Source: Streptomyces sp. NBC_00582 | GTDB taxonomy: Bacteria; Actinomycetota; Actinomycetes; Streptomycetales; Streptomycetaceae | NCBI RefSeq assembly: GCF_036345155.1 | Contig: NZ_CP107772.1 | Location: forward strand, 1-64,000 | Reading direction: 5' to 3' | DNA length: 64,000 nt | Shown here: piece after piece, positions 1 to 16,425 of the stretch | Layout: each line of letters starts with the position of its first letter | How positions within the stretch are numbered: position 1 is the stretch's first letter | Program-made: the position numbers and the translations under genes | The notes under the pieces: model-generated | Seen by the model: the letters and a program-made list of their open reading frames with translations, nothing else | Databases searched by the model: none | Told to the model about the DNA's origin: nothing

Positions 1-285
1 GTCCTTCGGGCTGCGCCCGAAGTAAGCGAACACCCGCGCTGCGCGCGGGTGTTGCGCTCCCGCTCCGCGTGAGCGCTAGCGGGTGGCTGCGCCACCCGCA
101 CAACCCGGCCGCTGCGCGGCCGGGTTGACGGTCCGTTCGCTGCGCTCTCGGACCGGCGGGACTTACGTCCCGCTAAACCAGGCTTCCGCTTCGCTGCAGC
201 CTGGCCGGCGGGTCCGCTGCGCTCCCCCGCCTTACCGGTCCTTCTGGCTTCGCCTCCAGTCCCTCAAGGCCCGCTAACGCGGGCC
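1..285. repeat. Streptomyces-type telomere (palindrome chain)
   Basis: Successive palindromes fill this stretch. Perfect stems with a TGC loop are at 5-11/15-21 (7 bp), 29-39/43-53 (11 bp), 79-87/91-99 (9 bp) and 102-112/116-126 (11 bp). Further hairpins are at 54-59/71-76, 129-135/149-155 (TGC at its centre), 156-162/167-173 and 178-184/198-204, and about 269-282. Tightly packed palindromes with three-base loops are the known layout of Streptomyces telomeres, which fold when single-stranded and template terminal-protein-primed patching. The first bases are not the common archetypal telomere start, so this may be a divergent telomere class, or a few terminal bases may be missing. Confidence 0.85.
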
Positions 286-346
286 CGGCTGGCTACGAGA
301 AAGGAGGTCGTGGCTCGGTGAGGGCTAGTCACCGAGCACACCTGTG

Positions 347-514
347 TCAGCGTCTGCGGGCCCAGCCGCTCCCGATCCCGGCCACATGCAGCGCTAGGGC
401 AGTCAGCCCCAGCAGCATCACATTCGTCGAAGAGAACGCATCGTTGGTGCTGAGATCCGCCGCGTTGATCAAAAACGCCACGAAGAACAACACCGCCGCG
501 ACTATGCCAAGCAT
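347..514 (-). CDS. Small two-helix membrane protein
   Basis: A 55-residue protein made almost entirely of two hydrophobic helices (about residues 2-17 and 32-48) joined by a short polar loop rich in Ser, Thr and Asn, with an Arg-rich C-terminus. The start at 514 is preferred over a longer reading from 574 because GGAG lies 8 bases upstream. I do not recognise a function. It faces the telomere, and lies beside a second small membrane protein on the same strand and opposite the helicase gene. Small membrane proteins of this look are frequent in Streptomyces accessory DNA, but a role in telomere or transposon biology is not shown by the sequence. Confidence 0.6.
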   Translation of the reverse strand: MLGIVAAVLFFVAFLINAADLSTNDAFSSTNVMLLGLTALALHVAGIGSGWARRR

Positions 515-619
515 GAAACGAGCTCCTCTCAAAGGGGTGAAACCCGTATGCCCGGTCACGGCCTCGTCAGGCATAAGCCCGTGCTCTTGGGGCCGTAACT
601 GAGCCTTTTGGGCGGGTGC

Positions 620-913
620 TCAGGCGTGAGCGTGCTGGGGCCTTGCCATCTTCTCTGCTGCTGTGTGATGCGCGAGCCGGCCCGCCTCAGGGCCCTGCAG
701 ACGCCGTAGGAACAGGCTGGCGGTGGCGAGGAGGCCACTGAAGGCAGCCAAAAGGAGGACGCATGCCCACATCTGCGGGCTTCCCGGTGCCTGCCAGCCG
801 CTCCACAGGGCGGACGCTGCCCACAGAAGGGCACCCAAAGCGTAGAAGAAGCGGATGCGGCGGAGCTGTTGCACGGTGCGCAGGGGCATGATGCGTTCGG
901 TCTTCGGTGACAT
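620..913 (-). CDS. Small two-helix membrane protein
   Basis: A 97-residue protein with a basic N-terminus, two predicted transmembrane helices (about residues 23-40 and 48-66) and a hydrophilic, His- and Ala-rich tail. It lies upstream of the other small membrane gene on the same strand, about 105 bases apart, so the two may be co-transcribed. A later Met (residue 9) could be the true start; neither candidate has a convincing ribosome-binding site. Function unrecognised. Confidence 0.45.
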   Translation of the reverse strand: MSPKTERIMPLRTVQQLRRIRFFYALGALLWAASALWSGWQAPGSPQMWACVLLLAAFSGLLATASLFLRRLQGPEAGRLAHHTAAEKMARPQHAHA

Positions 914-1240
914 GCGGAGCCGTGTACCCCCGATACGCCGTGACCACCAAGCCGGAAGACGACTGGGGGCGAATGGAGTGGCTGGGTCTTAAAGGGCTTG
1001 TTGAAGAGCTTCCAGCGATTTTAGTGCTTCACTTTGTGATGCAAGATAGACTCTGGACTCATGGAGTGGCACGCCTGAGAGGGTGTGAAGTCTTTGGGAT
1101 CTCGCTTCCCCCCGCATGATCGGCTGCTGGGATCAAGTCTCGATGCTCTCACCGTAGCCGATCACACGCCGTCTACGTGCAGGGCTCCTCTTGCTGTCAC
1201 GTCAGAGCACCCACCGGTCTACAGGAGAAAACAGATCGGA
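914..1240. other. Intergenic region between divergent genes
   Basis: A 327-base gap between the leftward small membrane gene and the rightward helicase. Roughly 985-1100 is clearly lower in GC than its surroundings. The divergent arrangement implies promoters here, but no consensus boxes stand out. Open frames through it lack coding character. A transposon end could lie here; I found no repeated transposase-binding-like motif. Confidence 0.4.
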
Positions 1241-3796
1241 ATGGCAGGGATGCAACTCCGTCCCCATCAGCGAGAAGCCGTGGACAGGGTACTTCGCGCC
1301 CTCGAATTGCCTGCAAGATCTCTTGTACCAGAGGGCGGCCTGCGGACTCAGGTGATCATGGCGACCGGATCCGGCAAGAGCCTCGTGGCTACCCGGAGCG
1401 CTGAGGAGCTCCGCGCTGGCCGGGTCCTAGTGCTCGTGCCCTCGTTGGACCTGCTCGCCCAGACCGAGGCCTCCTGGCGCGCCGGCGGCTGCACGGGCCC
1501 GATCATCGGGGTCTCGTCCCTGCGCGGGGATCAGGTGTCCTTCCCCAACACCACGGACGTGGACGAGCTGGTCTCCTGGGTGAAGCCGTTCGACAAGGTG
1601 ACCGTGTTCGCCACGTACGCCTCGTTGGGGCTGGGCACGCTGGAGCGCGCTCATGAGGCCGGCCTTCCGGGCTGGGACCTGATCGTCGTGGACGAAGCCC
1701 ACCGCTGTTCCGGCCGGATCGGGAAGCCGTGGGCAGTCGTGCACAACAATCAGAAGATTCCGTCCCTGCGCCGCTTGTACATGACGGCCACGCCCCGGCT
1801 GTGGCAGCTGGACGAAGACTCCGAGCAGGGCGCGCCGGGCGAGCTGGTGGCCTCGATGGAAGACGACCCCAACGGGCCGTTCGGCAGCCGGTGTTTCACC
1901 CTGACGTTGTCGGAGGCTATCGACAGGGGAATCTGTGCGCCGTACCAGGTGGTGTGCGTGGACGTCACCGACACCCAGCTCCAGGCCGCCGTGCTGCTCG
2001 GTGCGGACGGCAGGTCGGACCAGGTGCGCGGGGCCCGGCTCGCCGCGCTGCAGACGGCCCTGGTGAAGGCGGCCGCGGAGGAGGGCTTCCGCCGAACCCT
2101 CACCTTCCACCACGTGGTCAAGGAAGCCGAGGCATTCGCGGCCGGCCTTCCCGACATCGCCGCACAGCTGCACGACAGCGATCCGGAGGTGTACCCCAAG
2201 ACGATCTGGGCGGACTGGCTGTGCGGTGACCACAAGCCCAGCCACCGGCGGCGGGTTCTCGGGGAGTTCGCCGACGGCATCGCCACGGACGGCACCGTGG
2301 TGGAGAAGGGCTTTCTGAGTTCCGTGAAGGTCCTGGGCGAAGGCGTGGACACCCGCAACTGCGACTCCGTGTACTTCGCCGACGTGCGCGGCTCCATGCC
2401 CGACCTCGTCCAGGCCGTCGGCCGGGCGCTGCGCATCCAGCCGGGTGAAGGCAAAATGGCGTCCCTCGTGGTGCCAGTACTGCTGGGGCCCGGGGAGACA
2501 CCCGACAACATGCTCACCAGCCGGGCGTACGGCGGCCTGGCCAAGCTCCTGGAAGCGCTCAGGGCGCATGACGCCCGCATCGTGGAGCAGCTCGCCGAGC
2601 CCCAGGCGCGAAGCCGTGCCAGGGGCGTGCACACCCGCAGCGGGGGCCAGGAAGACGAAGCAGCCGGCAGCGACCGAAGCGACCGAGAACTGTCACCGCC
2701 GGCGCGAGCACTGCTGAAGTTCTCCACGCCGCGTGACCCCGCGCAGCTGGCCGCGTTCATCAACCTGCGCGTCCTCAACCCCGAACACGCCCACTGGCGG
2801 CGCGGCATCGAAGCCGGCGCCATCTACTACCGACTCCACGGCGACCTACGCGTGCCGTTCACGTACCGCGTGCCCGCCAAGAACGACCAGGAGGCGGAAG
2901 CCGAACAGTGGCCCACCTCCCTGGCGGGGTTCCCACTGGGGCAATGGATCGCCGACGCTCGCAGGTTCTACGCCCGCGGGGACATGGACGACGACCGCAT
3001 CGCGCAGCTGGAGCGGCTCGGCATGGTGTGGTCGCACTACGACGTCGCCTGGGAGGAAGCGCTCACTGCGGCCCGTGGGTGGGCGGCCGAACACGGCCAC
3101 CTTCTGGCCCCCACGGACGCCACGCACCACGGTTTCAAGATCGGCATCTTTCTGAAGAACGCGCGGGCCGCCGCCCGCCGGGGCATGCAGGCCGAGCAAC
3201 GGCAGACCCAGGGCCTTCCAGTGAAGACGACGTCGGCCTGGGTGCTGTCGGCCGAGCGGCGCGAACAGCTCGAGGACATCGACCCATCGTGGTGCCCCAC
3301 CTGGCCGGTGGAATGGCAACGCGCCTTCCACCTCACCCGGCAGCACCTGGAAGCCGGCGGCACGCTACCGAGCGAGCCGGGCATCGTCGTACGCCAGGGC
3401 GAGGACCTCGGACGATGGGTCAAGACAGTGCGCTTCGGCGGGGACAAACTCACCAATGTCCAGCAGTGGATGTGCGAGAACATCCTCGGCATCCAGCCCG
3501 CGACCGAGGACGAGAAGCCGCGTCTGCGCCGCACACAGGCCGACAAGTGGGCGCTCAACTACGCTGCCGCCAGACAGTTCCACGAGCGCGAGGGACACCT
3601 TCAAGTACCGAGGCAGCATGTCGAACGGATCGCCGTCGCCAGCGGGGACGACGCTCGCGACGGCGCGAGCAGCGGGGACCAGGAGGAACGAGAGATCAAG
3701 CTCGGGGCATGGATCGGGAATCAGAGATCTAGAGCCGCGACGCTGTCGCCGGAACGGATCGAACAGCTCTCCGCCATCGGCATGCGCTGGACGTAG
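1241..3796 (+). CDS. Telomere-proximal DEAH helicase with HA repeats
   Basis: An 851-residue superfamily 2 helicase. Walker A ATGSGKS is at about residues 41-47, the DEAH box in VVDEAHRC near 150-155, TATP (motif III) near 182, and motif VI QAVGRALR near 390. The C-terminal part (about 495-851) holds four helicase-associated (HA) modules with the W...A...HGHL...LG.W pattern, starting near 495, 603, 691 and 769. The start at 1241 (MAGMQLRPHQ) is chosen because family members begin at the LRPHQ motif; a longer frame reaches back to 1085. Helicase-like genes next to telomeres are typical of Streptomyces linear replicons (the TtrA/Tth type, linked to transfer), so a role in terminal DNA metabolism or transfer is likely but inferred. 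It points toward the transposition operon and may be read with it. Confidence 0.85.
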   Translation: MAGMQLRPHQREAVDRVLRALELPARSLVPEGGLRTQVIMATGSGKSLVATRSAEELRAGRVLVLVPSLDLLAQTEASWRAGGCTGPIIGVSSLRGDQVSFPNTTDVDELVSWVKPFDKVTVFATYASLGLGTLERAHEAGLPGWDLIVVDEAHRCSGRIGKPWAVVHNNQKIPSLRRLYMTATPRLWQLDEDSEQGAPGELVASMEDDPNGPFGSRCFTLTLSEAIDRGICAPYQVVCVDVTDTQLQAAVLLGADGRSDQVRGARLAALQTALVKAAAEEGFRRTLTFHHVVKEAEAFAAGLPDIAAQLHDSDPEVYPKTIWADWLCGDHKPSHRRRVLGEFADGIATDGTVVEKGFLSSVKVLGEGVDTRNCDSVYFADVRGSMPDLVQAVGRALRIQPGEGKMASLVVPVLLGPGETPDNMLTSRAYGGLAKLLEALRAHDARIVEQLAEPQARSRARGVHTRSGGQEDEAAGSDRSDRELSPPARALLKFSTPRDPAQLAAFINLRVLNPEHAHWRRGIEAGAIYYRLHGDLRVPFTYRVPAKNDQEAEAEQWPTSLAGFPLGQWIADARRFYARGDMDDDRIAQLERLGMVWSHYDVAWEEALTAARGWAAEHGHLLAPTDATHHGFKIGIFLKNARAAARRGMQAEQRQTQGLPVKTTSAWVLSAERREQLEDIDPSWCPTWPVEWQRAFHLTRQHLEAGGTLPSEPGIVVRQGEDLGRWVKTVRFGGDKLTNVQQWMCENILGIQPATEDEKPRLRRTQADKWALNYAAARQFHEREGHLQVPRQHVERIAVASGDDARDGASSGDQEEREIKLGAWIGNQRSRAATLSPERIEQLSAIGMRWT

Positions 3797-3922
3797 ATTC
3801 CGACGGGTTTTGCCCTGTGGCGCCCTCGAGTCGATCCGTTGGCAGGGAGACCGCCGGTGGCACTGCGGCAGGTCGGGCATGAAAGCACCTCCTAGCACCA
3901 CCGGGGCTGTGCCCATTACCCG

Positions 3923-4711
3923 ATGAGCCGACGAGCCGTTGAGCTTGGTGTGCACAGTGCGGGGCGGGACATGGAGAAGGCCGGGCAGACCGACGTTGAG
4001 TCCGTGGACGTGCTTTTCCTGGCTGCCGACAGAACGACAAAGTGTTTGAGATGGCCAACTGCTGCTCCCGAGGTGGCGTTTGAGCGGTGCCCACCGCTGC
4101 AACCGTTCCCAGCTCGCAAGGGCAAGCGGATGGCGCCGGGATGGTGGTGGTCGTCAACCACTGGGCGGCTGGTGCACTACGGATCTGCGGCGATGCGACT
4201 GCACGTGATGCTCCTCGATCGCGACCCGCGCGTCAGCGGCTTGGCCGCCCGGCCGCTTGAACTGCGGTGGCGCGAGTCGAGCGGGATGCGGGCGCATGCT
4301 CCTCAGCTGATGCTCCGGCTGGCAGGTGGCCAAGGGGTGCTCGTCGACTGTACAGGGAGAGGGGAGCTGTCTCGGCGCCAGCGGTCTCTTGCTGCGATGG
4401 TGGGAGAGATCTGTACGGCGGCGGGCTGGCAGTACTGGGTGCTCGGGCCTGTTGACGCGATCTACCGGCGCAATGCGACCTGGCTGGCCGGATACCGACA
4501 CCCGCGGCACCACGGTGGTCGGTTGCTGGCTGCCGCGCTGCAGGAGGCGTTCGCCGAGCCCGCGCCGCTATGGGAGGGCGTACGCAGGATCGGGGATCCG
4601 CTGGTAGTGCTTCCTGCGCTCTTTCATGCTCTGTGGGCGGGACGGCTGGCGGCGGACCTGGGGGCGCCGATGCATGAGCGGATGCCGGTGTGGGCGCAGG
4701 CGGCAGAGTGA
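3923..4711 (+). CDS. tnsA: TnsA-like transposase subunit, degenerate active site
   Basis: A 262-residue protein at the TnsA position of a Tn7-like operon, overlapping tnsB by up to 22 bases. In Tn7, TnsA is the nuclease that cuts the 5' transposon ends. The TnsA-like core (about residues 40-150) has the RWPTA..E..FE, MLLDRDPRV and GVLVDC landmarks. Acidic and lysine residues expected of an active PD-(D/E)xK site appear replaced: GSAAMRL where ExxxE is usual, APQLM (Gln128) where PDF is usual, and VDCTGR (141-146) where an E/D-x-K is usual. This suggests structural retention with lost or altered cleavage. Later conserved stretches (GWQYWVLGPVD, WLAGYRHPR) are kept. The N-terminal 35 residues look unconserved, so the start may be further in. 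Confidence 0.7.
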   Translation: MSRRAVELGVHSAGRDMEKAGQTDVESVDVLFLAADRTTKCLRWPTAAPEVAFERCPPLQPFPARKGKRMAPGWWWSSTTGRLVHYGSAAMRLHVMLLDRDPRVSGLAARPLELRWRESSGMRAHAPQLMLRLAGGQGVLVDCTGRGELSRRQRSLAAMVGEICTAAGWQYWVLGPVDAIYRRNATWLAGYRHPRHHGGRLLAAALQEAFAEPAPLWEGVRRIGDPLVVLPALFHALWAGRLAADLGAPMHERMPVWAQAAE

Positions 4712-6909
4712 GGACAGACAGCAAAGTACCGGGCAGGCCGGTCGTGGAGCTGGGGTGCCAGGTCCGGTTCGGGGGGTGTACCTGGACGGTGGCGGCCCTT
4801 GCTGACGGTCAGGTGCGGCTGGTCGCCGAGGACGGTGCGGTAGCAGCGGTTTTGCTGTCGCTGCTGTTCGCCGATGTGGGGTTCAAAGTCCTGGATGCGC
4901 CGGGAGGGCCCAGCGTGCCGCCGCTGGGCTTGCTGGAGTCGTTGCCCGAGGCGGTACGGGAACGAGCCCTGGCGTGGGAGCGGCATGTGCGGGAGGTGGA
5001 GACGGGGCAGCCGGGCGAGCCGGGTGCGGCAGGTCCGCCGCGGGCGGAGTACGACCCGCAGGCGCGGACGCTGGCGCAGCGGGAGGAAGCGAAGGCGGCG
5101 GAACTGTCGGCGGCCGGCATGCCCACCAGCGTGGTGACGGTGCGGCGGATGCGGGCCCGCTACCGCCGTGAGGGGGTGTGGGGGCTGGTGGACCACCGTG
5201 CCACCCGGCCACGGTCCGTCCTGGGGCGGGCGGACGAGCGGGTGGTAGCCGCCCTGCGGGAGGTGCTGGAGGCCGGGCGGGAGCGCTCCAGCGGGACGCG
5301 GGGACGGCTGCGGGTATACACCGAGCGGCTGCTGGCCGAGCAGTACGGAGAGGGGGTGGTGCCCCTGCCCTCGAGTGCGACGTTCAACCGGCTCGTGCAC
5401 GCCCTCGCCGACGGACGCGGGCTACTGGGCAGTGCGCGGCAACGCCGCTGGCGATCAGCCCGGCCGGCTCCCCCGTTCGTCCCGACGACGGTGATGGCGC
5501 CGGGTGAGCTGGTGATGATGGACAGCACCGTGCTGGACGCCTTCGTGGTGCTCGACGACGGGGTGGTGGAGCGTCCGGAACTGACCATCGCGCTGGATGT
5601 GGCCACCCGCACCATCTGCGCGGCCGTGCTGCGTGCGAAAGGGACCCGCAGCGTGGACGCGGCGCAACTGCTGGCGCAGATGATGGTCCCGGCGCCGATG
5701 CGGCCCACCTGGTCCGAGGCGCTGGCGATGGAACACTCGGTAGTGCCCTACGAGCGGCTGCTGAGCGTGGATGCCCGGCTGGAAGGTGCCGCGGCGCGGC
5801 CGGTGATCACCCCGCAGACCATCGTGGTCGACCAGGGAAATGTGTTCGTCTCGTCCTCGTTCATCGCCGCCTGTGAGTCGCTGGGCATTTCCGTGCAGCC
5901 CACGCCGCCGGGCAACGGGCCCGCCAAGGGGCACGTGGAGCGCACCTTCTCCTCGATCAACACGCTGTTCGTGCAGCACGTGGCCGCCTACACAGGCTCG
6001 CACACTGGCGAGCGCGGCCAGGACGCCGAAGGCGAGGCGGTGTGGACGCTGGCCCAGCTGAACGACCTGCTGCAGGAGTGGATCATCTGCGGGTGGCAGG
6101 AACGCAAGCACGACGGGCTACGGCACCCGATGATGCCCCGCTGTGCGCTGTCGCCGCACGAGATGTGGGCGGCACTGGTCGCCGTATGCGGGTACGTCCC
6201 GGTGCCGCTGGGCCGTGAGGACTACATCGAGCTGATGCCCGTGAAGAGGCAGAAGATCAACGACTACGGCATCCGCATCGACTACCGCACCTACGACCAC
6301 AAGGCCCTCAACCCCTACCGCGGCGAGCGCTCCCCGGCGGCGGACGGCCTGTGGGAGATCCACTACAACCCGCACGCACCCGGCCAGGTCTGGGTACGCC
6401 TGCCGAAGCCTGACCAGCCGCGCGGATATGAGTGGGAGGCCGTGCCGTGGATCCACCACACCCTGGTCAGCGCACCGTTCACCGACTTCACCTGGCAGTA
6501 CATCAAGCGCACCGTCGCCCGCCGCACCCACCGCGCCCAGCACGAACACGACCTGGCGCTTGCCCTGCGCGAGCTGCTGGAACGCGCCGCCGCCGGACAT
6601 GGCACCCGCCGGGAGAAGGTCGTCACCGCCCGCACCCGCACCGCCGCAACGGACGGTGCGGTGTGGGGGATCTTGTACGGCCAGCAGCCGGAGGCCGAGG
6701 TGCTTGAGCCCGCCGACGAGGACGTCTTTGACGACAGTGAGGACGACGAGGAGCCCCTGACCGACGACGGCGCCGTGGACGCCTGGCCGGCTGAAGGTGC
6801 ACAGCCGAGCAACTCCTCGGCTGCTCCAGTGCAGGGAGCTGGCGTACCTGCTGCGCGCCGCGCCAAGGTCACGGTCTACGACCCCTTTGAGGAATGCCTG
6901 CGATGGTGA
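4690..6909 (+). CDS. tnsB: TnsB-like DDE transposase
   Basis: A transposase of 739 residues from the GTG at 4690. A GTG at 4708, overlapping the tnsA stop as GTGA, is an equally good start. Order of parts: N-terminal beta-rich and helix-turn-helix DNA-binding segments (about residues 20-250, including VRRMRARYRR near 151), the rve/DDE catalytic core with Asp278 (MMDSTVLDAF), Asp381 (VVDQGN) and Glu417 (GHVERTF), and a Mu-type C-terminal beta-barrel (about 500-570). All three catalytic residues are present. It is the transposase that binds the element ends and joins 3' ends to target DNA. The acidic tail after about 670 is a plausible contact for the TnsC-like ATPase, whose gene overlaps its end by 16 bases. 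Confidence 0.92.
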   Translation: MGAGGRVRTDSKVPGRPVVELGCQVRFGGCTWTVAALADGQVRLVAEDGAVAAVLLSLLFADVGFKVLDAPGGPSVPPLGLLESLPEAVRERALAWERHVREVETGQPGEPGAAGPPRAEYDPQARTLAQREEAKAAELSAAGMPTSVVTVRRMRARYRREGVWGLVDHRATRPRSVLGRADERVVAALREVLEAGRERSSGTRGRLRVYTERLLAEQYGEGVVPLPSSATFNRLVHALADGRGLLGSARQRRWRSARPAPPFVPTTVMAPGELVMMDSTVLDAFVVLDDGVVERPELTIALDVATRTICAAVLRAKGTRSVDAAQLLAQMMVPAPMRPTWSEALAMEHSVVPYERLLSVDARLEGAAARPVITPQTIVVDQGNVFVSSSFIAACESLGISVQPTPPGNGPAKGHVERTFSSINTLFVQHVAAYTGSHTGERGQDAEGEAVWTLAQLNDLLQEWIICGWQERKHDGLRHPMMPRCALSPHEMWAALVAVCGYVPVPLGREDYIELMPVKRQKINDYGIRIDYRTYDHKALNPYRGERSPAADGLWEIHYNPHAPGQVWVRLPKPDQPRGYEWEAVPWIHHTLVSAPFTDFTWQYIKRTVARRTHRAQHEHDLALALRELLERAAAGHGTRREKVVTARTRTAATDGAVWGILYGQQPEAEVLEPADEDVFDDSEDDEEPLTDDGAVDAWPAEGAQPSNSSAAPVQGAGVPAARRAKVTVYDPFEECLRW

Positions 6910-7922
6910 GTCCGCTCGTCTCGAACGACGCCGCGGGGTTCGCACCGCTGGCCCCTCCGACCGTATGGCAGGGATGGGACGCCTTCGTCCGCCGTGCCCC
7001 GGCACCCTTGCGCGACGCCGCCGATCCAGCCTGGTCCCAGGCCGAGCGCGAGGACTACCACTCCGAACTCGCCGTCATGCGCACCCCCGCCATGGACAGC
7101 GTGTTCACCGCGGTGCGCCGGCTGCTGCTGGTCAACCGCCGCCAGCAGGCCGGCGCCCGCCGCGGTTTGATCATCTCTGGTCCGGCCACGACGGGTAAGA
7201 CCACGACGATGATGGCACTGGGGCGTTCCTTCCATCTGGCTGACGCTCGCCAGCACCCAGGACAGGCAGAGCGCAGGCCTGTGCTGTTCATCAGCGTGCC
7301 GCCGGCCGCCACCCCGAAGATGCTCGTCAGCGAGTTCGCCCGGTTCCTCGGCATGCCCATCACCGACCGCCTCAACCAGACCCAGATCACTGGCGCCGTA
7401 TGCGACCTGTTGTGTGAGCTGGGCACCCAGCTGGTCCTCATCGACGACGTCCACCTCCTGGACACCCAGCGGCGCGCCGGAGCTGAGACCTCCGATCAGC
7501 TGAAGTACCTCGGCGAACGCATCCCGGCCACCTTCGTGTACTCCGCGATCGACATCGAGACTTCCTCGCTGCTGAGCGGGGTGCGCGGGGCGCAGATTGC
7601 CGGCCGCTTCAAGATCTTCCGCCACCGTCCGCTGGCGTATGCGACCGAGCAGGACCGGGCTGTCTGGGACGACCTCGTGCGGGCCATGGAGGACCTGCTG
7701 AGGCTGCGCGCGCACCGGCCCGGAATCCTGGTCAAGCATGCCGCTTACCTCCATGCCCGCACTGCGGGGCGGATCGGCAGCCTCTCTCACCTCATCCGCG
7801 AAGCCGCCCTGATTGCCCTCACCGAAGGCGCCGAGCGGATCACCAAGCAGCTGCTGAGCGAGGTCGAGCTCGACGCGGCAGCCGAAGCCCAGGCCCGGCC
7901 CCACCGCCCTCGCCGGGCATAG
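6894..7922 (+). CDS. tnsC: TnsC/TniB-like AAA+ transposition regulator
   Basis: A 342-residue AAA+ ATPase with Walker A GPATTGKT (96-103) and Walker B LVLIDDVHLL (about 180-189), followed by the SDQLKYLGERIPATFVY segment typical of TniB/TnsC. In Tn7 and Tn5053-type elements this protein forms filaments on target DNA and connects the transposase to the target selector (TniQ/TnsD). The gene overlaps tnsB by 16 bases and ends 9 bases before tniQ, so the four genes form one transcription unit. ATG at 6903 is an alternative start. No insertion or deletion disrupts the ATPase core, so the element looks functional at this step. Confidence 0.9.
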   Translation: MPAMVSPLVSNDAAGFAPLAPPTVWQGWDAFVRRAPAPLRDAADPAWSQAEREDYHSELAVMRTPAMDSVFTAVRRLLLVNRRQQAGARRGLIISGPATTGKTTTMMALGRSFHLADARQHPGQAERRPVLFISVPPAATPKMLVSEFARFLGMPITDRLNQTQITGAVCDLLCELGTQLVLIDDVHLLDTQRRAGAETSDQLKYLGERIPATFVYSAIDIETSSLLSGVRGAQIAGRFKIFRHRPLAYATEQDRAVWDDLVRAMEDLLRLRAHRPGILVKHAAYLHARTAGRIGSLSHLIREAALIALTEGAERITKQLLSEVELDAAAEAQARPHRPRRA

Positions 7923-7931
7923 TGCGCGCAG

Positions 7932-10900
7932 ATGGCACACCAGCATCCGTCTCGTGCGGCGGTCCGCAGCACGGCCAACGGCGGGGAACGGACGGCAGCG
8001 TCCGGCGTCCTCGTCACGGCACTGGCCGGCGGTGCGGCCGGACGCGTGGCACCGCTGCACGGGGAGCTGACGCTGTCGTTCCTGAACCGGCTCGCCGCCC
8101 GCTACCACCTCGGCCTGCGGGACCTGCTCGCCGCCATCACCGAGACCGACGGTCGGCAAAACGTCGCCGGGATGCTGTACCCGGACAGCGAGATCCACCT
8201 CAACGCCCAGGCACGCGAGCGGGTGTGCGCCCTCAGCCGCGTTCCAGCGGCGGTGCTGGAACGAGCTCTGCCGGCGTGGGCGCGGGCAGAACCACACGCG
8301 CACTACCCAGGCGGCCCGGCCGGCCGCCTGACCCGCGGTGAGGAAGCCGTCGCCCCGTGGGGGCCCGCCTGCCCCTCCTGCTGTGCCGCCCGCACCGGCC
8401 GCCGCATGCCCGCCCGCCGGTACCTGACACCTGGAGAGCGGGTCTGCGCACGCCACCAGTACTGGCTGCTGTTCCTGCCCGGAACCAGCGGCCTGCCCGT
8501 GCCCCTTGGCCGGTGCCCGGAGGTGGTCGACGCCCAGCGACGGCATGTCCGACTGCTGCGCCACTGCCCCGCCGGTGCGCAGGCCTTCGAAGTCGCCCGT
8601 GCTGTCACCGGATCCTGGTGGGACCAGCCCTGGCCGAACGAGGAGCATCTGTGGCCGGCCCGCCTCGATGCCACCCGGCCCGTCGGCGCCGATCCTGGCT
8701 GGTGGAAGACGGCCGCCCGCGACCTGATCACCTATCCGGAAACCGTCGCCGTGGCGCAGGTAGTGGCCAGCCCCTACTGGCAGCAGCAGACCATCGCCCA
8801 AGCGCGCGGCCATCTTCCCTATCGGCTTGGCGAGTTGCCTCAGCTGCTGGCCGAGCTCGCCGGCCAGCTCGGGCGGCCGTGGCTCGCCCACCACCTCGCC
8901 ACCGTCACCCACGGGCCTCTGTTCACCTGGGCCCACTCCTGCGTACACACCCGCGCGGTCGCCGCACCCGCGGCGCAGAAGACACTATGGGCGGTGCACT
9001 CGGCACACCGGCCCCGCACCCTCAGCGACCTCCTCCCCCACGCTCCGGCCGCCGACGGCACCCAGCCCGCGGCAAAGCCCGCCAGACGCCTACGCGGCCA
9101 CAGCCTCCAGGCCGAGCAAGCCTTCCAGACAGGCCTGGCCCAGGCCCACGCCTACCACCAGCAGCACGGGCACCTCGCCGTGCCCAAGGAAGACACCCCC
9201 GCCGACTATCCGCTGGGCCAATGGCTCGCCAACACCCGCGCACGCCACACCCGCATGCCCGCCCACCAAGCCGCCGCCCTCACCGCGCTGTACCCGTGGT
9301 GGAACGCGCCCTGGAGCACGCTGTGGCAGCGCACCTGGCACCAAGCCCGCACCCACCACCAGACCCATGGCCCGCTCAAGCCAGCCCGAGGATTCCCCAC
9401 CACCAGCTACAGCCTCGGCGAATGGCTATACCTACAGTGCACCCGCTACCCCACCCTCCACCCCGAACAACAACGCCTCCTCACCCAGATCGGCATCGAC
9501 GCCGCGGCAGCCGCTGCCGCCCGGCCCAGACGACGCAACCTCAAGGCCGGCGCCGAAGAAGCCCTCGCCCACGCCCGCTCCTACGCCGCCGAACACGGCA
9601 GCCTCGCCTCCGTGACCTCGGCAACCGTCCACGGCGATTTCCGCCTGGGACAGTGGCTCGCCAACCAACGCAACTACCAGCGCACTGGCCACCGGCCCCT
9701 GCCCGCCGGCCGCGCCCAGGCCCTCACCGCCATCGACCCCTGGTGGTGCCCACCCTGGCACCTGACGTGGCAGCGCAGCTATCACCGTGCCCGCAACGCC
9801 GCAGATGGCCACCGCCTCCAGGCCGAGAACGGCTTCAATGCCCTCGACGACTCCGGTGCCGCCGACTGGCTATGGCGCCAGTGCGCCACGTACGGCGAAC
9901 TCCACCCCGAGCAGCGGCAACTCCTCGTCGGTATCGGCATCACCACCGAGGTGGCCCGCACGACCCTGGAACATGCACGTACGGCCCCGAAGAGGCCGAC
10001 GGCGACCCCGGTCGCGGACGTGAAAGACAAGGCCGGCCGCGCCAGAAAGGCTGCAGGCCCTGCGGCTGTTCCGGGTCGACGCCGCACTCGGCGTGCCACC
10101 GAGCCGAAGCGCCCCCGCGATCCCCACAGCCGCCTCGGACACCGACCCGACCTGAGGCCGGGCTTCGAAACAGCCCTCGCACACGCCCGGGCCTGGCACG
10201 CCGCACACGGCCACCTCGCAGCTCCCCGGGACACCCTGCACGACGGGTATCCGCTGGGGTGGTGGCTGTTCAGCCAGCGCAACCGAGCCAAGGACCGGGC
10301 ACGCCGCGGTCTGCCGCCCTCACCCCACCTGACCGAGCTCGCCGCGATCGACTCGTGGTGGAACCCGCCGTGGGACCTGCACTGGCAACGCAACTACTAC
10401 CGCACCCGCGACCACATCAAAGCGGGCCGCCCGTTCGACCCCGCAGCCCGCATCCCCGCCCCGAGCACAGTCCTGGGCACCTGGATCACCCGGGCATGCC
10501 TCCAGTACGACCAGCTCCACCCCGGCCAGCAGCACCTGCTGAACGCTATCGGCATCACCGCCCAGACAGCCGGCCACTGGCGGCCCAGTCCCCGACCCCG
10601 GCCCCACGCCGAAGCCCTCCGACACGCCCGCACCTGGGCAGCCGAACACGGCCACCTCTGCCCGCCAATCAAAACCGTCCACGACGGCTTCCCCCTCGGC
10701 ACATGGCTCGACAGCCAACGCCAACTCGCGAAGAAACGGACCAGCCCCTCCCCCACCCAGCAGATGCTCGCCACGATCGACCCCTGGTGGAACCCTCCCT
10801 GGCCCATCCTGTGGCAACGCGCCTACCACCACGCCCACACCCACCCCCGCCACCCGGCCACCCGCCACTGGCTCCACAACCAACAACGCAGCTTGCCACT

Positions 10901-10955
10901 CCTCCACCCCCGCCAACAACAACTCCTCACCACCACCGGCCTCGTCAGCATCTGA
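7932..10955 (+). CDS. tniQ: TniQ fused to an array of helicase-associated (HA) modules
   Basis: A 1007-residue target-selection protein. Residues about 38-340 are TniQ-like: the PLHGELTLSFLNRLA start, then a Cys/His zinc-binding site made of CPSCC and CARHQYWL. From about residue 394 to the end lie four roughly 150-residue double repeats (starting near 394, 542, 745 and 895). Each is a full HA module (HGHL...LG.WL...R) plus a second, more diverged one ending in LHP.Q..LL..IGI, so about eight in all. A basic linker (about 675-740) separates pairs two and three. HA modules of this pattern also end the telomere-side helicase in this window. Ordinary TniQ proteins are 300-500 residues, so the fusion is unusual. 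Inference: the HA array reads the DNA or a telomeric partner and directs insertion there. Confidence 0.88.
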   Translation: MAHQHPSRAAVRSTANGGERTAASGVLVTALAGGAAGRVAPLHGELTLSFLNRLAARYHLGLRDLLAAITETDGRQNVAGMLYPDSEIHLNAQARERVCALSRVPAAVLERALPAWARAEPHAHYPGGPAGRLTRGEEAVAPWGPACPSCCAARTGRRMPARRYLTPGERVCARHQYWLLFLPGTSGLPVPLGRCPEVVDAQRRHVRLLRHCPAGAQAFEVARAVTGSWWDQPWPNEEHLWPARLDATRPVGADPGWWKTAARDLITYPETVAVAQVVASPYWQQQTIAQARGHLPYRLGELPQLLAELAGQLGRPWLAHHLATVTHGPLFTWAHSCVHTRAVAAPAAQKTLWAVHSAHRPRTLSDLLPHAPAADGTQPAAKPARRLRGHSLQAEQAFQTGLAQAHAYHQQHGHLAVPKEDTPADYPLGQWLANTRARHTRMPAHQAAALTALYPWWNAPWSTLWQRTWHQARTHHQTHGPLKPARGFPTTSYSLGEWLYLQCTRYPTLHPEQQRLLTQIGIDAAAAAAARPRRRNLKAGAEEALAHARSYAAEHGSLASVTSATVHGDFRLGQWLANQRNYQRTGHRPLPAGRAQALTAIDPWWCPPWHLTWQRSYHRARNAADGHRLQAENGFNALDDSGAADWLWRQCATYGELHPEQRQLLVGIGITTEVARTTLEHARTAPKRPTATPVADVKDKAGRARKAAGPAAVPGRRRTRRATEPKRPRDPHSRLGHRPDLRPGFETALAHARAWHAAHGHLAAPRDTLHDGYPLGWWLFSQRNRAKDRARRGLPPSPHLTELAAIDSWWNPPWDLHWQRNYYRTRDHIKAGRPFDPAARIPAPSTVLGTWITRACLQYDQLHPGQQHLLNAIGITAQTAGHWRPSPRPRPHAEALRHARTWAAEHGHLCPPIKTVHDGFPLGTWLDSQRQLAKKRTSPSPTQQMLATIDPWWNPPWPILWQRAYHHAHTHPRHPATRHWLHNQQRSLPLLHPRQQQLLTTTGLVSI

Positions 10956-11475
10956 ACGTTGCCTCCAGCCGGTACCGGCTCGCACTCCGGTGGCTTCCTG
11001 GAGCAGCGGCGGCCGGGAACTTCGGTAACGGTGTCGCCGAACAGCCCCTGAGCGGCGCCGCGATGAGCGATACTGGTGGGTACGTCCAGCGTGCCCATTG
11101 GAAGAAGCACGCGGTCAACGAGTAAGAGAAAGGCGGCGCGGAGAAGGTTAAATGAACCGGCTTGAGGGCTTTATCAGCAGTCTTTTTGTTAGCTGCTCCC
11201 CCTGACCCACCCTGCCCAAAAAGCCGAAGAAAACCTCCGCTAAAACCGCCGAACAAAGCCTCTGAAAAACCCCACGGGAACAGCGAACCCACACCCCAAG
11301 GGGCTAGCAGGCCTGCCGTAAAACACCACCGGCCCGCCCTACGGCGGCGCCGGCCCTCGGCATGCCCTCACACCACGGCACCCTTGTGCCGCCTCTCCCC
11401 GTCCCAGCCGCCCTCCCGCGGCTTGTTCAGGCATGAGGCGGCCCAGCCGTCACGTGCTGGAAGGGCATCCACGCG
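10956..11475. other. Intergenic region after tniQ
   Basis: About 520 bases with no convincing gene. It has a 14-base palindrome at 10967-10980 and a comparatively A-rich stretch at 11155-11290 with short A-tracts, unlike the coding DNA around it. The inner end of the Tn7-like element is expected around here, as it is the first non-coding DNA after tniQ, but I could not identify repeated transposase-binding sites or a terminal inverted repeat by eye. Confidence 0.4.
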
Positions 11476-11841
11476 ATGAACTCGTCCTCCCTCGCCCCCA
11501 TCACCGGCTTTCTGGCCGGACTCCCCGCCGTCCTCGCCGGTGCCCTGGGCGGCGCACCCTGGTGGGCCGTCGGAGTCATCGTCATCGCGGCATACCTCGC
11601 CGTCCCCCTCACCAGCCTCATCCTCGAACACTCACGACAACGAAAAGGAACACTGGTCGATGAGAAATTCGCAGCCACACTCGACCAGATAACGGACCCC
11701 GAAAAAAGAATCCAAGCCATCATCACCTACCGGCAAGCCACAGCCCCCGCCACCACTCCCCAGCCACCACCCGACCCACCACCAGGAGCACAACCGCCCG
11801 CGAACCCAGACAGCGCCAGCCAGTCACCGGCGTCCACCTAG
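11476..11841 (+). CDS. Small membrane protein with Pro-rich tail
   Basis: A 121-residue protein with one long hydrophobic region, probably two helices (about residues 7-24 and 29-48), a basic/acidic amphipathic middle containing LDQITDPEKRIQAII, and a disordered C-terminus rich in Pro, Gln and Ala. No family recognised. It stands alone between the transposition operon and the sigma-factor operon. Confidence 0.6.
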   Translation: MNSSSLAPITGFLAGLPAVLAGALGGAPWWAVGVIVIAAYLAVPLTSLILEHSRQRKGTLVDEKFAATLDQITDPEKRIQAIITYRQATAPATTPQPPPDPPPGAQPPANPDSASQSPAST

Positions 11842-11951
11842 ACGAACAGGCGGCCTGCAGTGGCGCTGGCTCCGCGAGGCTTTGAAGGTGCACCAGCGCT
11901 GGCTACCGGCGCTGACGCACCGATCGAGGCCGCAGCCTCTGGCCGGAGCGA

Positions 11952-12354
11952 TCACCCCGGCCAACGAGGCCGGACATCAAGGACGACCGGGGCCTCGCCC
12001 AGCGGGCCGTCCTCGATCCGGAACCGGCGAGCGGACAGGATCGCGCGCACGGCCTGGTTCATGACGGCCTGCTGGGCATCGCACAGCTCGGCGGGAAGGT
12101 GATGGGCGGCCTTCGGGTCCTGCTGCCACTGCACCCGCAGCGCACGATTGTTGCCGGGGACCGGGGCCAGGCCCACCCCGGTCTCCTCACCGTCAGCCGC
12201 CGCCTCGATGTCGCGGCAGGCCGGCCAGCAGCACGGCCCCGAGTCCCGCCCGCGCGAGCTGCTCCTGCGCCCCGGTGAGCGCCGCACCGTCCAGCACGGC
12301 CCTGCCCGCGAAGTAACGTGCCTGCCTCCGGTAGTCCCCGACCTGAAGGCCCAT
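11952..12354 (-). pseudogene. Frameshifted hypothetical gene
   Basis: A good start at 12354 (AAGGAG about 12 bases upstream) opens a frame encoding MGLQVGDYRRQARYFAGRAV... which stops after 53 residues. From about 12215 a second frame continues with equally coding-like protein (ADGEETGVGLAPVPGN..., then LPAELCDAQQAVMNQAVRA...) to the stop at 11952. The two pieces make sense only as one protein of about 130 residues broken by a single frameshift. The product is not recognised. A sequencing error would give the same picture. Confidence 0.5.
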
Positions 12355-12514
12355 GGTCGAGTTCTTCTCCTTCCCGGCGGGGCAAAGGCCCTGAGAATGT
12401 TCGGCTGACGGGTCTGTGAGGCGTACGTCACGGACGGCGGGGTCACAAAAGGCGGGGGTGCGTGCACTACATAGTGTCGGCAGGTGAACGGGTCACCGCC
12501 GGGGAAGGCGGACC

Positions 12515-12742
12515 ATGATGGATCCGGTGCTCGGGGGCGGGCTGCTGATGCTGTGCAGCTGGTTGTATCGGCTGCTGCACATATGGATGGCCAGCCATAC
12601 CGAACTGCGCACAACCGAGATGCAGCAGCAAGGTCTCAGCGAGCGCGTGCGGCACCTGCCGCCCGGCAGCCGACTGCTGGAACGGCCCGGCAGGGTCGAG
12701 GTTGTGACGGGAGCGCAGCCGGCGGAGTTCCGCCGTGGCTGA
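12515..12742 (+). CDS. Small membrane-anchored protein, sigma operon
   Basis: A 75-residue protein with an N-terminal hydrophobic helix (about residues 5-25) and a polar, charged C-terminus. Its end overlaps the start of the sigma-factor gene by 8 bases, which implies translational coupling. A membrane-anchored partner of an ECF sigma factor invites comparison with an anti-sigma factor, but no zinc-binding or anti-sigma motif is present, so that is only a suggestion. Confidence 0.5.
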   Translation: MMDPVLGGGLLMLCSWLYRLLHIWMASHTELRTTEMQQQGLSERVRHLPPGSRLLERPGRVEVVTGAQPAEFRRG

Positions 12743-13298
12743 GTCGGTCTCGCCCGTGGCGGGGAAGACGGTACAGGCGCCTTCACAAATCGACGGGGCC
12801 TCGCCCGCGTTAACGACCAGCAGTCTTGAGGACCTCTACCGCGTCGAGATGCCGCAGCTGACGCGGTTCCTGGTCCGGGTCGGCGCGACCCCCTACGAGG
12901 CTGCCGATGCCGCTCATGAGGCCTTCACCGTAGCCATCGAGAAATGGGACAGCATCCGGGAACCGCGGGCATGGCTGCGCAAGGTCGCTCACCGCTGCTA
13001 TCTGCGTCAGACGGGCCAACGGGACACCCCCTACGACCCGTTGCCCGATCGCCCAGGCGGTACCTGTCCCATCGCCCACGTGACCCTCAAAGAGGGAAAT
13101 CAGCGGGTCCTGAACGCACTGGCCCAACTGCCACCGCTGCAGCGGCACGTCATGGCGTGGGCCCAGGACGGCTTCACCGACCAGGAGATCGCCCAAGCGC
13201 TTGATATGCAGGAAGCCGCCGTCAGGAAGAACCGAAGCCGCGCCCGGCTTCGACTGCAGCAGACTCTCGTTGAGAAGACAGGGGGCCGCGATGAGTGA
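12735..13298 (+). CDS. ECF-family RNA polymerase sigma factor
   Basis: A 187-residue (GTG start) group 4 sigma factor. Region 2 spans about residues 30-95 (LEDLYRVEMPQLTRFLVRVG... REPRAWLRKVAHRCYL) and region 4 about 125-180 (LPPLQRHVMAWAQDGFTDQE, then an HTH ending in AVRKNRSRARLRL). It would direct RNA polymerase to a small set of promoters. It sits between a small membrane protein and a soluble helical protein, overlapping both, so the three are one operon. No classical zinc-binding anti-sigma gene follows; control may come from either neighbour. Confidence 0.85.
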   Translation: MAESVSPVAGKTVQAPSQIDGASPALTTSSLEDLYRVEMPQLTRFLVRVGATPYEAADAAHEAFTVAIEKWDSIREPRAWLRKVAHRCYLRQTGQRDTPYDPLPDRPGGTCPIAHVTLKEGNQRVLNALAQLPPLQRHVMAWAQDGFTDQEIAQALDMQEAAVRKNRSRARLRLQQTLVEKTGGRDE

Positions 13299-13995
13299 AC
13301 ACACCATGTCCCGGGAGACAACGGTCCCCGAGGGTGACACCGTCCAGGGAGATGGCCGCCCCACGGCTGCTGATACACGTCTGGATCAGCTTCTTGCGGC
13401 TGCCGACGAAGAACTGTCCCAGTGTCTCGACGACGCCCTCGATCTCACGGACGGTCTTCAGCAGCTCGCTTCCCTTCCTTCCTGCCCCGCTCCTCCGCGA
13501 CCGGCCGCCGGCCTGAACGGGGATGCCCTGCGCTGTTCGAACCTGCACAACACCGGGCGTCCCGGCGAACGCACCCGCATCGACGACAACCAGCAGCTAC
13601 AGGAAGCCCTCGACCTCCTGCAGCACACCAGCGACCAGTTCCACGGCCTTGTGAGCATGACGGACAACGGCCCGTCATCCCTGGAGACCGCACGGTCCAA
13701 GCTGACCCACGCTCAGCTGGTCATCTCGCGGCTCATCACCAAAGCACGAGGCAGGACACTCACGAGGACGCAGAACACCGCGGCATTCAACGACATCCAC
13801 GATTGCGTCAACACGGCCTGGACCACCGTCGCGCAGACACTGGAAAGCCCCGCCGCAGACCCCCACGCCGTGCTCCTCGACGACGCCCTCGACACCCTCG
13901 ACGGCGCCACACAACGCATCACCCAGGCACACCGCATCCTCGACCACCTCCTCAACCAGATCGAAGAGGACCTCGACCAGCCCCTCCCCGCCTGA
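13291..13995 (+). CDS. Helical partner protein of the ECF sigma factor
   Basis: A 234-residue acidic protein beginning at an ATG that overlaps the sigma-factor stop (ATGAGTGA). It appears soluble and largely alpha-helical, with two similar acidic stretches, LLAAADEELSQCLDDALDLT near residue 35 and AVLLDDALDTLDGATQRI near 192, suggesting an internal duplication. No known domain is recognised and no membrane segment is seen. The overlap implies a stoichiometric relation with the sigma factor. Confidence 0.7.
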   Translation: MSEHTMSRETTVPEGDTVQGDGRPTAADTRLDQLLAAADEELSQCLDDALDLTDGLQQLASLPSCPAPPRPAAGLNGDALRCSNLHNTGRPGERTRIDDNQQLQEALDLLQHTSDQFHGLVSMTDNGPSSLETARSKLTHAQLVISRLITKARGRTLTRTQNTAAFNDIHDCVNTAWTTVAQTLESPAADPHAVLLDDALDTLDGATQRITQAHRILDHLLNQIEEDLDQPLPA

Positions 13996-14460
13996 GTCAC
14001 CCCCACCCGGATGACGCGCTCACCGCCGACGACCTCACCAGATCGTCAGCCAACTCACCGACGGACGACTGCCGGCGACCATTTCGTCGGTCCCCCCGGG
14101 TACCCCGCCTGCCGCGCTGCCTCCCAGCCCCGTAGAAGACAGCGCCCCATACCAGCGATCAACGAACATGAACACCGGCCAGCGCAGATGACACGACCTG
14201 ACAAATCAACGCACCATCTGGCAAACCCACAGATCACAAGCCCACCCGAGGTCCGGCACCACACCTCTTACCCCACCCCTGCCGCGCTCGTAGCCCTCGA
14301 CCGACGGCGCACACCAAAGTGATCAGAGCAGGTCAGCCCACCGACCACCGATCACAAAAACCGCTCCTGGACATGGCCGCCCTGCGGGAGCTGGGCGTGG
14401 AGTGGGCGTGACGCTCCCGCCGGCGGGTCGTTGAACCGGTCGGACATCCCAGAGCACAGA

Positions 14461-14491
14461 GAGACCCCGGGCCGCAGATGCCCGGGGTCTC
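14461..14491. terminator. Hairpin terminator
   Basis: A perfect 11-bp stem (GAGACCCCGGG paired with CCCGGGGTCTC) with a 9-base loop lies 30 bases beyond the stop of the leftward gene ending at 14521. It also lies in a gap where genes converge, so it probably serves both directions. There is no U-tract, as is common in Streptomyces. The rest of 13996-14520 shows no gene. Confidence 0.7.
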
Positions 14492-14520
14492 GTACGTGTG
14501 GGGCTGCACACCCACGCGGG

Positions 14521-15483
14521 CTACCAGCGGCGCAGGTCCTTGGTGAGTTCGCCGTACCACTCGGTGCGGCGCGGCACGTACTCGTCAGGCGCCGGTCCGA
14601 GCGCGACGGCGTGGTCCGTGATCCCGTAAGTGACCCGGTAGGCCAGGACCTGGGTGGCGAGGTCCATCCACTCCTGCGTCTTGTGCGCCGGCGGCACGGG
14701 ACCGAGCACGGTCACGAACCACATGGGCAGCAGGGCGCGGTCGCGGATCGCGTCGGCCAGACGGCCGCGCAACAGCCAGTTCAGCTTCCTCTCCGCCTTG
14801 TCGCCCTGCTCGATCAGCGACGCCTTCGCCTGCCTCAGAGAGTCATCCTGAGCCAGTGCGGCCTGGGCGGTCTGGGCGGGGCCAGCCAGTTGCCGGGCCC
14901 GCTGATCGTTCCTCTCGGCGAGGGTGCGGGACATGCCGAAGTCCATGACGGCCTGCTTGAACTCGCGGGAGGTGCGCGGCTGACTGGCCAGGATGCCGGC
15001 GGCCTCCACCACCTTGTCCCGGTGTTCGTCGCGTTCGGCGACCGCGCCTTCGTACTCGCGGACCTTGAGGCGGTGGGCCTCGCGCTGGTGTCTGGGGAGC
15101 AGGCCGGAGCGCACGTGCCAGCCGTGGTTGGCGGTCCTGGCCAGCTTCTTCCACTCCGGGTCGATGGTGTCGAGGTCGGCGAGTGGGGCGCCGCCCGCGG
15201 CGAGCAGGTGGGCTTCGAGGGCCTGGACGCGGCCGGTCAGCCGCTTGAGGGACTGATCCGTGTCCTGGATGTGGCCGCGTACGTCGTCGTCCAGTTCGGT
15301 GAGGTCGTTGCGGACGGTGCTAAGGTCGTCCTCGAGGCTGCGGATGCCGCCCCGGATGTCGCGCAGCTCGTAGTCGAGGTCTTCGACCTCCCCTAGCTTC
15401 GAGCGCAGCGAGTGCAGTTCGTGCTCCATCCCGCCGGTCCGGGTCTCCAGACGGCGGACCTGGTAGCTGTAGTCGTCGCTCAC
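14521..15483 (-). CDS. Coiled-coil protein of unknown function
   Basis: A 320-residue protein starting at a GTG that overlaps the upstream stop as GTGA. The first 85 or so residues form a long heptad coiled coil (LETRTGGMEHELHSLRSKL... onward). The middle is helical, and the C-terminal part has a hydrophobic patch (ALLPMWFVTVLGPVPPAHKT, about 248-267) ending in a Trp-rich, basic tail. It is coupled to a four-helix membrane protein, so the pair may form a membrane complex with a cytoplasmic stalk. Not assigned to a known family. Confidence 0.75.
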   Translation of the reverse strand: MSDDYSYQVRRLETRTGGMEHELHSLRSKLGEVEDLDYELRDIRGGIRSLEDDLSTVRNDLTELDDDVRGHIQDTDQSLKRLTGRVQALEAHLLAAGGAPLADLDTIDPEWKKLARTANHGWHVRSGLLPRHQREAHRLKVREYEGAVAERDEHRDKVVEAAGILASQPRTSREFKQAVMDFGMSRTLAERNDQRARQLAGPAQTAQAALAQDDSLRQAKASLIEQGDKAERKLNWLLRGRLADAIRDRALLPMWFVTVLGPVPPAHKTQEWMDLATQVLAYRVTYGITDHAVALGPAPDEYVPRRTEWYGELTKDLRRW

Positions 15484-16022
15484 CGCCGCGCCTCCTTCGG
15501 CTCGGCGCCTGTGCTGTCCATCGAGGACCCGGCGACGAGCATCCAGCCCACGGCGGCGGCGATGATGAACCACCGGCTGATCACGCTCAGGCTGATGAGG
15601 GCCATCAGGAGCGCGACCACGTGCAGTCCGATGGCTCCGAAGCGGCGGTCACGGTGCTGTTCGGCATCGACCTTCTGGAAGCAGCCGGCCACCGTTCCCA
15701 TGAAGTGCGGGCCCAGCAGGACTAACCACCAGGTCGAGCGGTCGAGGACGAAGACGAGCGCGATGAGCACCGCGGCGACGGCCGCCTGGCCGCGCCAGGA
15801 CCACGTCACGATGCGCTCACTGCGTCTGCGCTCGGGTTCGGCCAGCCGCTCGGGGATCGTCTTCTCGAACTCCACCAGCTTGCTGGTGACGTTCACCAGC
15901 CGGGCGTACTCCACCGGGAACTGGTCGCCGTCGGAGTGCTTCAGCACCTCGGCATGGCGAGCGCCGACCTTCTGCTGAAGTTGCGCGAACTGCTCCTCGA
16001 TCTCCTGCTCGGTGCTGCCCAC
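15480..16022 (-). CDS. Membrane protein with N-terminal coiled coil
   Basis: A 180-residue protein (GTG start at 16022; a longer frame reaches 16139 but with non-coding-like composition). Residues 1-60 are charged and helical (TEQEIEEQFAQLQQKV). About four hydrophobic helices follow: WRGQAAVAAVLIALVFV, WWLVLLGPHFMGTVAG, LHVVALLMALISLSV and FIIAAAVGWMLVAGSS. Its stop overlaps the start of the downstream coiled-coil gene, so the two proteins are made together. Function unrecognised. Confidence 0.75.
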   Translation of the reverse strand: MGSTEQEIEEQFAQLQQKVGARHAEVLKHSDGDQFPVEYARLVNVTSKLVEFEKTIPERLAEPERRRSERIVTWSWRGQAAVAAVLIALVFVLDRSTWWLVLLGPHFMGTVAGCFQKVDAEQHRDRRFGAIGLHVVALLMALISLSVISRWFIIAAAVGWMLVAGSSMDSTGAEPKEARR

Positions 16023-16425
16023 CGAACCACCCCCACCCGCGATGCGACGACACGCCGACCGGACACTTCCCACCGGCAGCCACCGCCAGCCGTCAAACCG
16101 ATCGACCGTACCCGCAGCTGTCCGGGACCCGCCGGGCAATCAGATGCAGTGGCCGAAACCATGCCGATCAACCCCGCGCATCGGTGCCTGCCCCGGGTCG
16201 CCCCGGCCTGACGGGCGGCGGAGCGCGGCGGCCCCCGGTCGACGCGCAACCGGCTGGGCGCGCCCCGATCCCCGGCCGTGGCCGCTCCGCCCATCCCGCC
16301 CGTCCCTTCCTCCTTCACTCCAGCCAAGGGACATGGGCAGAGCAGCCGCAACGGGGATGTCAGCGATCCGACCACGGCAAAACAACGTGGTGACCTGCGC
16401 GGACACGGAGACGGTCCTGCGGGCC

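Follow-up and report, generated by a model that had tools for sequence, protein, structure and literature searches.

We analyzed the first 64,000 nucleotides (positions 1–64,000, hereafter the window) of NZ_CP107772.1, the linear 10,791,786-bp contig of Streptomyces sp. NBC_00582, and its outermost ~14 kb (1–14,373) very probably constitute a Tn7-like element that has the telomere as one boundary and for which a single transposon end was found. We hold with high confidence, as one joint reading, that such elements are bounded by a telomere, carry one end per copy, and replace the telomere of the replicon into which they would transpose. The outer boundary is the telomere itself (1–320, no strand assigned), which opens with the chain of TGC-looped palindromes reported in a preliminary description of this DNA, namely four perfect hairpins within 4–127 (4–22, 29–53, 79–99, and 101–127; stems of 8–12 bp). 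These 320 bases align to the very ends of linear plasmids in the 40 matches listed among 128 records. The right end of the contig carries an inverted copy, and the terminal inverted repeat was traced over 140 kb, with one unmatched stretch of ~1 kb near 60–61 kb. Related loci and most plasmid matches (L and G numbers below are our handles for loci and genomes) are from Streptomyces.

Inward of the telomere lie a helicase gene and then tnsA, tnsB, tnsC, and tniQ, all on the forward strand and reading inwards, with all tns frames open. The helicase (1241–3796) matches Pfam ResIII, DEAD, and Helicase_C, has three helicase-associated (HA) stretches, and is TtrA-like by place and direction. Homology of the tns core starts just ahead of tnsA (3910–3922, forward strand, from blastn starts and aligned sequences): blastn matches begin at 3907–3912 in ten loci (L007–L012, L014, L015, L039, and L049), and tnsB is 78–91% identical to that of the window in L007–L012, L014, L015, and L039. 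The product of tnsA (3923–4711) belongs to the TnsA family NF033179 (261 bits, cut-off 110), with the catalytic E and D replaced (GSAAMR, PQ). The DDE transposase gene tnsB (4690–6909) has a match to Mu-transpos_C and one to rve that falls under the cut-off; its D..D..E triad can be read in the sequence, and its product aligns with solved TnsB chains. The TniB/AAA ATPase gene tnsC (6894–7922) has a TniB match and a readable Walker A motif, and tniQ (7932–10,955) joins a TniQ domain (residues 38–178) to five HA stretches and encodes the predicted target selector. The HA domain is common to TniQ and the outer helicase. Domain matches, open frames, and residues read in the sequence bear out the gene block, the DDE triad, and the TnsC ATPase core that had been described before. 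With tnsA, tnsB, tnsC, and tniQ together and the triad present, the element is Tn7-like by its genes; we do not class it as a standard two-ended Tn7, because one end was found.

That end is a pair of phased TnsB-like sites at 14,312–14,373 (14,312–14,335 and 14,345–14,373, forward strand), with a tip reading ...CTCCTGGACA and a mirror copy in the right arm. The tip, at 14,373, ends in ACA, as is expected of Tn7-like ends. In L006, L064, L065, and L066, the block 14,312–14,411 recurs at the point where the match to the window breaks off, and L015 has it at the end of its contig; the consensus of the block ends ...TGATCAGAAAAACCGCTCCTGGACA. The range of 1–10,955 first given for the element must be extended to 14,373. 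A candidate inner end at 11,845, the position at which five loci cease to match, was rejected because later comparison showed that only a conserved gene ends there. Scanning with a tip matrix gave 40.5–44.2 in 6 of 17 loci and, on either strand, at most 14.3 at the next best place in those loci, so each tip-bearing locus holds one tip in the DNA scanned. With two mismatches allowed, the tip pattern was found in 45 of 392 related genomes, at 61 places in all, and the reversed pattern, used as a control, in none of the 392. A second GATCA at −53, as expected for phased TnsB sites, is present in 25 of 40 nonredundant tips (44 found); the GATCA at −24 belongs to the search pattern itself.

The DNA immediately behind the tip is what is left of a target gene. 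Bases 14,374–14,411 (forward strand) hold the last 12 codons and the stop of an interrupted helicase gene (..AALRELGVEWA, then stop), resembling the 3′ ends of annotated helicases near plasmid ends, and these 38 bases with the inner flank match 23 plasmid records, 11 of the matches lying on annotated helicases. Intact annotated helicases on four linear plasmids (L127–L130) end 3832, 3831, 4183, and 3863 bases from the replicon end, and an intact helicase on chromosome G067 ends 3773 bases from it; all five are uninserted sites. In frame and 24–34 nt past the tip, the motif [LIP]GxxW occurs at 20 of the 30 tip loci read among the 61 places (18 of the 20 at 25–29 nt), against 43 of 1800 random windows (2.4%). 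The usual insertion site observed is therefore the 3′ end of a helicase gene. The preliminary description had proposed insertion at the telomere: the element does occupy the replicon end, but its usual point of entry lies 3.8–4.2 kb inside, judged from the five intact sites.

For every one of the 28 tips on the 18 contigs whose length is known, the element lies towards the nearer end (median distance 18.6 kb; 15 of 28 within 20 kb, 24 of 28 within 110 kb, furthest 531 kb); with each mirror pair counted once, the 28 tips become 21. A 29th tip outside this count (G096:C3, at 44,563 of 117,989) has the same orientation, and G154 provides a second full chromosomal example, with its tip at 18,063. 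Relatives of TnsB behave alike: of the 40 plasmid records listed out of 158, 33 have at least 100 kb, and in these the gene points inward in 32 and lies within 30 kb of an end in 31. The preliminary description had taken mostly internal homologs as an outcome that would speak against it, and this distribution is the opposite; more distant relatives with an active-type TnsA do lie inside chromosomes. A telomeric transposon is reportedly an element with one specific transposon end and the telomere as its other boundary; both were found here, together with a location at the replicon end and a tip directed inwards.

The helicase now at the end of the chromosome is not the one that was interrupted. 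The inner flank of the window matches L024 at 95% identity over 589 bp and L131 at 97% over 122 bp. A helicase C-terminus is common to these two loci (87% over 724 bp, counting the flank), and it has only 28–32% protein identity with the C-terminal part of the outer helicase of the window. This comparison rules out the outer helicase, which we had considered, as the interrupted gene, and since the interrupted helicase is unlike the present outer one, the outer arm was exchanged; the element probably arrived through TnsB joining its tip to the target, at the cost of the former telomere arm. Among 12 sister loci, the outer helicase is 83% identical to that of the window in L039, 50% in L013, and 34–38% in the other ten, while tnsB is 73–91% identical (78–91% in those ten); 71 of 397 matching plasmid records have a helicase at least 60% identical to that of the window. 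Because the helicases diverge among sister loci while tnsB stays similar, telomere and helicase look like a module swapped between cores. Both lie inside the element, bounded by the telomere, as the preliminary description had supposed. In G090, two tips stand 3 kb apart (29,607 and 32,621), each followed by the helicase-end motif, as though a younger element had inserted into the helicase end of an earlier one. Units comprising telomere, helicase, and tip fit within 4379 (G226) and 4169 (G230) bases, with no match to tns genes within 8 kb in either, and G052 has a tip at 3501 where no window gene matches. A further arrangement was seen in L144 (1–7639), where a telomere, a helicase, and an AAA ATPase precede a truncated helicase whose 3′ end matches the window flank, possibly another telomere-replacing unit without tns genes.

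The same data bear on a different history, in which an ordinary two-ended Tn7-like element sat behind a helicase, telomere and helicase were swapped later by homologous recombination, and the left end diverged or was lost. The sharp start of core homology at 3907–3912 in ten loci would fit such a swap, and PMC8743542 states that telomere classes in Streptomyces do not track strain kinship and already proposes recombination with incoming plasmids. Yet in the window the stretch from telomere to tnsA yielded no second end, nor did the rest of its genome except for the mirror copy, and eight other outer regions gave no convincing one; scans of these nine regions gave nothing above shuffled sequences in seven. 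The exceptions were L181, which scored slightly high (11.9 vs. 7.5 ± 2.5 in shuffles), and L176, discussed below, whose one site-like score would count in favor of a lost left end. The units without tns genes need no left end, and the helicase adjoining the core differs from the interrupted one; we therefore consider later recombination improbable. The preliminary description had reported no two conventional ends, and had regarded two ordinary ends as contrary to its proposal. A second end was indeed absent from these searches, but one end does exist, at 14,373; likewise, of the two places where it suggested mapping TnsB sites, the DNA 3′ of tniQ has the two phased TnsB-like sites, and that near 1–1240, part of the stretch scanned between telomere and tnsA, yielded none.

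Several observations weigh against a telomere-bounded, telomere-replacing element. Tips lie 167–531 kb inside the replicon in G094, G226, G255, and G171. No tip was present in the DNA covered in 11 of the 17 core loci scanned, and although some of these end too early, L008, L010, L011, L012, and L014 are tipless where the sequence continues 1.7–6 kb past tniQ. Only 13 of the 23 plasmid flank matches are within 5 kb of the record end; the helicase remnant of L131 is 93 kb from the contig end and reads outwards; and the flank match in L132 (95%) is 2.48 Mb inside G151, with no helicase match. The [LIP]GxxW motif is missing at 10 of the 30 loci (L151, L153, L154, L157, L159, L161, L162, L166, L174, and L175). 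Among these, L157 has a shifted helicase end; L153 and L161, which lack the second site, may be chance matches; L151, L162, and L166 have good tips with unexplained flanks; and the tip of L154, like that of L064 (12,321 onwards), enters a gene for a large protein with, in our reading, a BTAD-like part, a family that is a possible second target. In the outer part of the G226 small unit, L176 645–668 scores 16.3 in the orientation of the tip (shuffles 6.2 ± 2.7), which leaves some doubt about the count of one end with TnsB sites. The site-2 matrix contains misregistered rows, so a diverged left end could escape the scans, and target duplication cannot be scored because the outer flank is lost.

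The nuclease TnsA sets this element apart from its internal relatives. The predicted structure of the window TnsA (AlphaFold, pLDDT 88) has Tn7 TnsA (9bw1, 1t0f, and 1f1z) as top Foldseek matches, a first PDB search with the window TnsA having returned nothing of note. TnsA of relatives inside chromosomes has E..E, PD, and DVR or DCR, at positions that align to a TnsA–TnsB fusion of a CRISPR-associated transposon (weakly, E = 0.22). The clade of the window has G..M and PQ or PH, mostly without a basic residue after the last D; in the window itself the changes are E to G, E to M, PD to PQ, and DVR to DCT, so that the protein is not a catalytically complete TnsA and is predicted to be an inactive nuclease; some accepted Tn7-like elements have no TnsA at all. 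The tnsA-like gene of the preliminary description thus keeps its fold and family, but the catalytic residues are missing. In a tree of 56 TnsA sequences (from 75 loci, after removal of short and identical sequences), sequences with residues lost (31) and kept (25) are split by one branch with a support of 100. On contigs of at least 1 Mb, and counting only loci in which TnsA was read, all 10 residue-lost loci lie within 43 kb of an end, compared with 1 of 14 residue-kept loci within 50 kb (G058, 40 kb; Fisher P = 5.6e-6). The position tally gave 19 internal TnsA loci, five unread ones being excluded from this count, and two inactive loci are in pieces (L069 and L082). Exceptions occur on smaller contigs: an active-type TnsA (inferred from the same score as L215) at 11.5 kb in the 146-kb G025:C3, and the active-type L210, which on a 149-kb contig lies 51 kb from the end.

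Loss of these residues could also mean that the element is dead, its core hitch-hiking with the chromosome end. The tns frames are all open, TnsA is 70–81% identical among ten close relatives and retains its predicted fold, the loss is common to one well-supported clade, and tips are present in 45 of 392 genomes; a dead remnant is accordingly very unlikely.

For the way in which a telomere-bounded element with one end per copy would move, run-off copying and paired tips both fit the anatomy. Cleavage in Tn7 is shared, TnsA acting on the 5′ strands and TnsB on the 3′ strands. In run-off copying, which we put at somewhat less than an even chance, TniQ with its HA repeats would select the helicase 3′ end, TnsC would hand the chosen site to TnsB, and TnsB would nick only the 3′ strand at the tip, because the nuclease residues of TnsA are lost, and join the tip to the target while the donor stays attached. 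Primed by the free 3′ end of the target, copying would then proceed outwards along the element until the fork reached the telomere and ran off it, which would make a second end unnecessary. The product would be a replicon whose telomere and helicase are new and whose old outer arm is lost, as is seen. The new end would be maintained by Tap and Tpg of the host, on which it would depend because their genes lie outside the element at 50.1–52.8 kb (both on the forward strand): tap, for the telomere-associated protein, at 50,106–52,214 (NF047542, 1121.7 bits, cut-off 600), and tpg, for the terminal protein, at 52,226–52,777 (NF047541, 290 bits, cut-off 90). PF11296 had been a wrong guess for Tpg, and the two genes were found afterwards.

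What run-off copying leaves of our confidence in the core reading goes to paired tips, a model that shares this core and to which we assign the same chance. Two telomere copies (from both arms, or two paired telomeres) would be synapsed with a telomere–telomere bridge as the middle, and after insertion both sides of the cut target would carry a telomere. The chromosome of the window has mirror-image tips, one per arm, and a tip is present in each arm in 8 of the 18 contigs of known length, at nearly equal distances in 6; the other 10 have no tip in the second arm, although incomplete ends are possible in some, and paired tips do not specifically explain why TnsA residues were lost. Hsieh et al. 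(Science 387:eadp1973, 2025) reportedly argue for transposition with two end copies. The full proposition built on run-off copying, i.e., a one-ended copier whose TnsA nuclease was lost in a single end-tied clade, with a telomere serving as the second end, with telomere, helicase, and tip as the minimal mobile unit, and the way in which Streptomyces replicons exchange telomeres, is a little more doubtful than the copying step itself. The element gives telomere exchange another concrete agent, one with a recognizable tip and a usual breakpoint, which in 18 of the 20 loci with the motif falls 25–29 nt ahead of the last conserved Trp codon in the terminal helicase; by these two marks, any genome can be scored for telomere replacement. 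That an end-tied clade has lost the TnsA residues is a testable clue to how a transposon manages with one end per copy.

Other features of the region are as follows. A small conserved gene of unknown family (11,476–11,841, forward strand, no Pfam match) is kept in L008, L010, L011, L012, and L044, and a cargo gene for an ECF-type σ factor occupies 12,735–13,298 (forward strand; Sigma70_r2 and Sigma70_r4_2 above cut-off); the frame at 13,422–13,994 is probably not the real gene, and no cas gene was found among the Pfam-scanned reading frames of 1–14,373. Just 5′ of tnsA, 3907–3945 is strongly conserved in 14 relatives, contains an imperfect inverted repeat (CCCATTACCGGATGGG in relatives), and may be an operator or promoter. 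The DNA 3′ of tniQ (10,956–11,475) is also conserved, in places as much as the neighboring gene, and has two tiny conserved reading frames. L010 has an internal duplication of tnsB–tnsC–tniQ segments (9192–17,057), possibly an assembly artifact. Some neighborhoods (L136, L142, and L034) have both an HA-repeat TniQ and a short TniQ, which suggests two targeting routes. In L024 (13,400–14,038) and L046 (13,371–13,391), a second tnsABC lineage (tnsB ~52% identical, separate short tniQ) with a different tip seems to sit inside or just behind the same type of helicase. Further inward, the L024 match passes from window position 14,944 directly to 33,806 at 95–98% identity, so 14,945–33,805 may be an ~18.9-kb island; it includes a phage-integrase-like recombinase (17,802–19,274). 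The second contig of the genome (G000:C2, 353 kb) has a different terminal sequence and its own 8.3-kb inverted repeat.

A 2025 paper, cited in PMC12669027 and PMC13228271, reported telomeric transposons in linear bacterial genomes. The element of the window belongs to this already known kind. Hsieh et al. (in Science, 2025) reportedly describe Tn7-like genes, one end, the telomere as second boundary, and linear replicons including those of Streptomyces, and the element of the window is alike in each of these respects. A literature search, which did not cover the full text of Hsieh et al., returned no description of its family. Like Tn7, which uses TnsD/TniQ and the glmS site, the element has genes for TnsABC and TniQ, a tip ending in ACA, and a conserved gene whose 3′ end is its usual site. 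It differs from Tn7 in the one end found, where Tn7 has two, in a TnsA that is inactive by sequence, and in cutting the target gene, usually 25–29 nt before the last conserved Trp codon, with the outer part replaced. The I-E5 CRISPR-associated elements, according to PMC12669027, are likewise tied to telomeric transposons and carry CRISPR-Cas without TniQ, whereas the element of the window has TniQ. Finally, the ttrA helicases that face inwards at Streptomyces ends are, in the part seen of PMC8743542, of the same kind and position as both the outer helicase and the target gene of the window; there they are treated as telomeric genes, whereas here they are the target and the cargo of a transposon.

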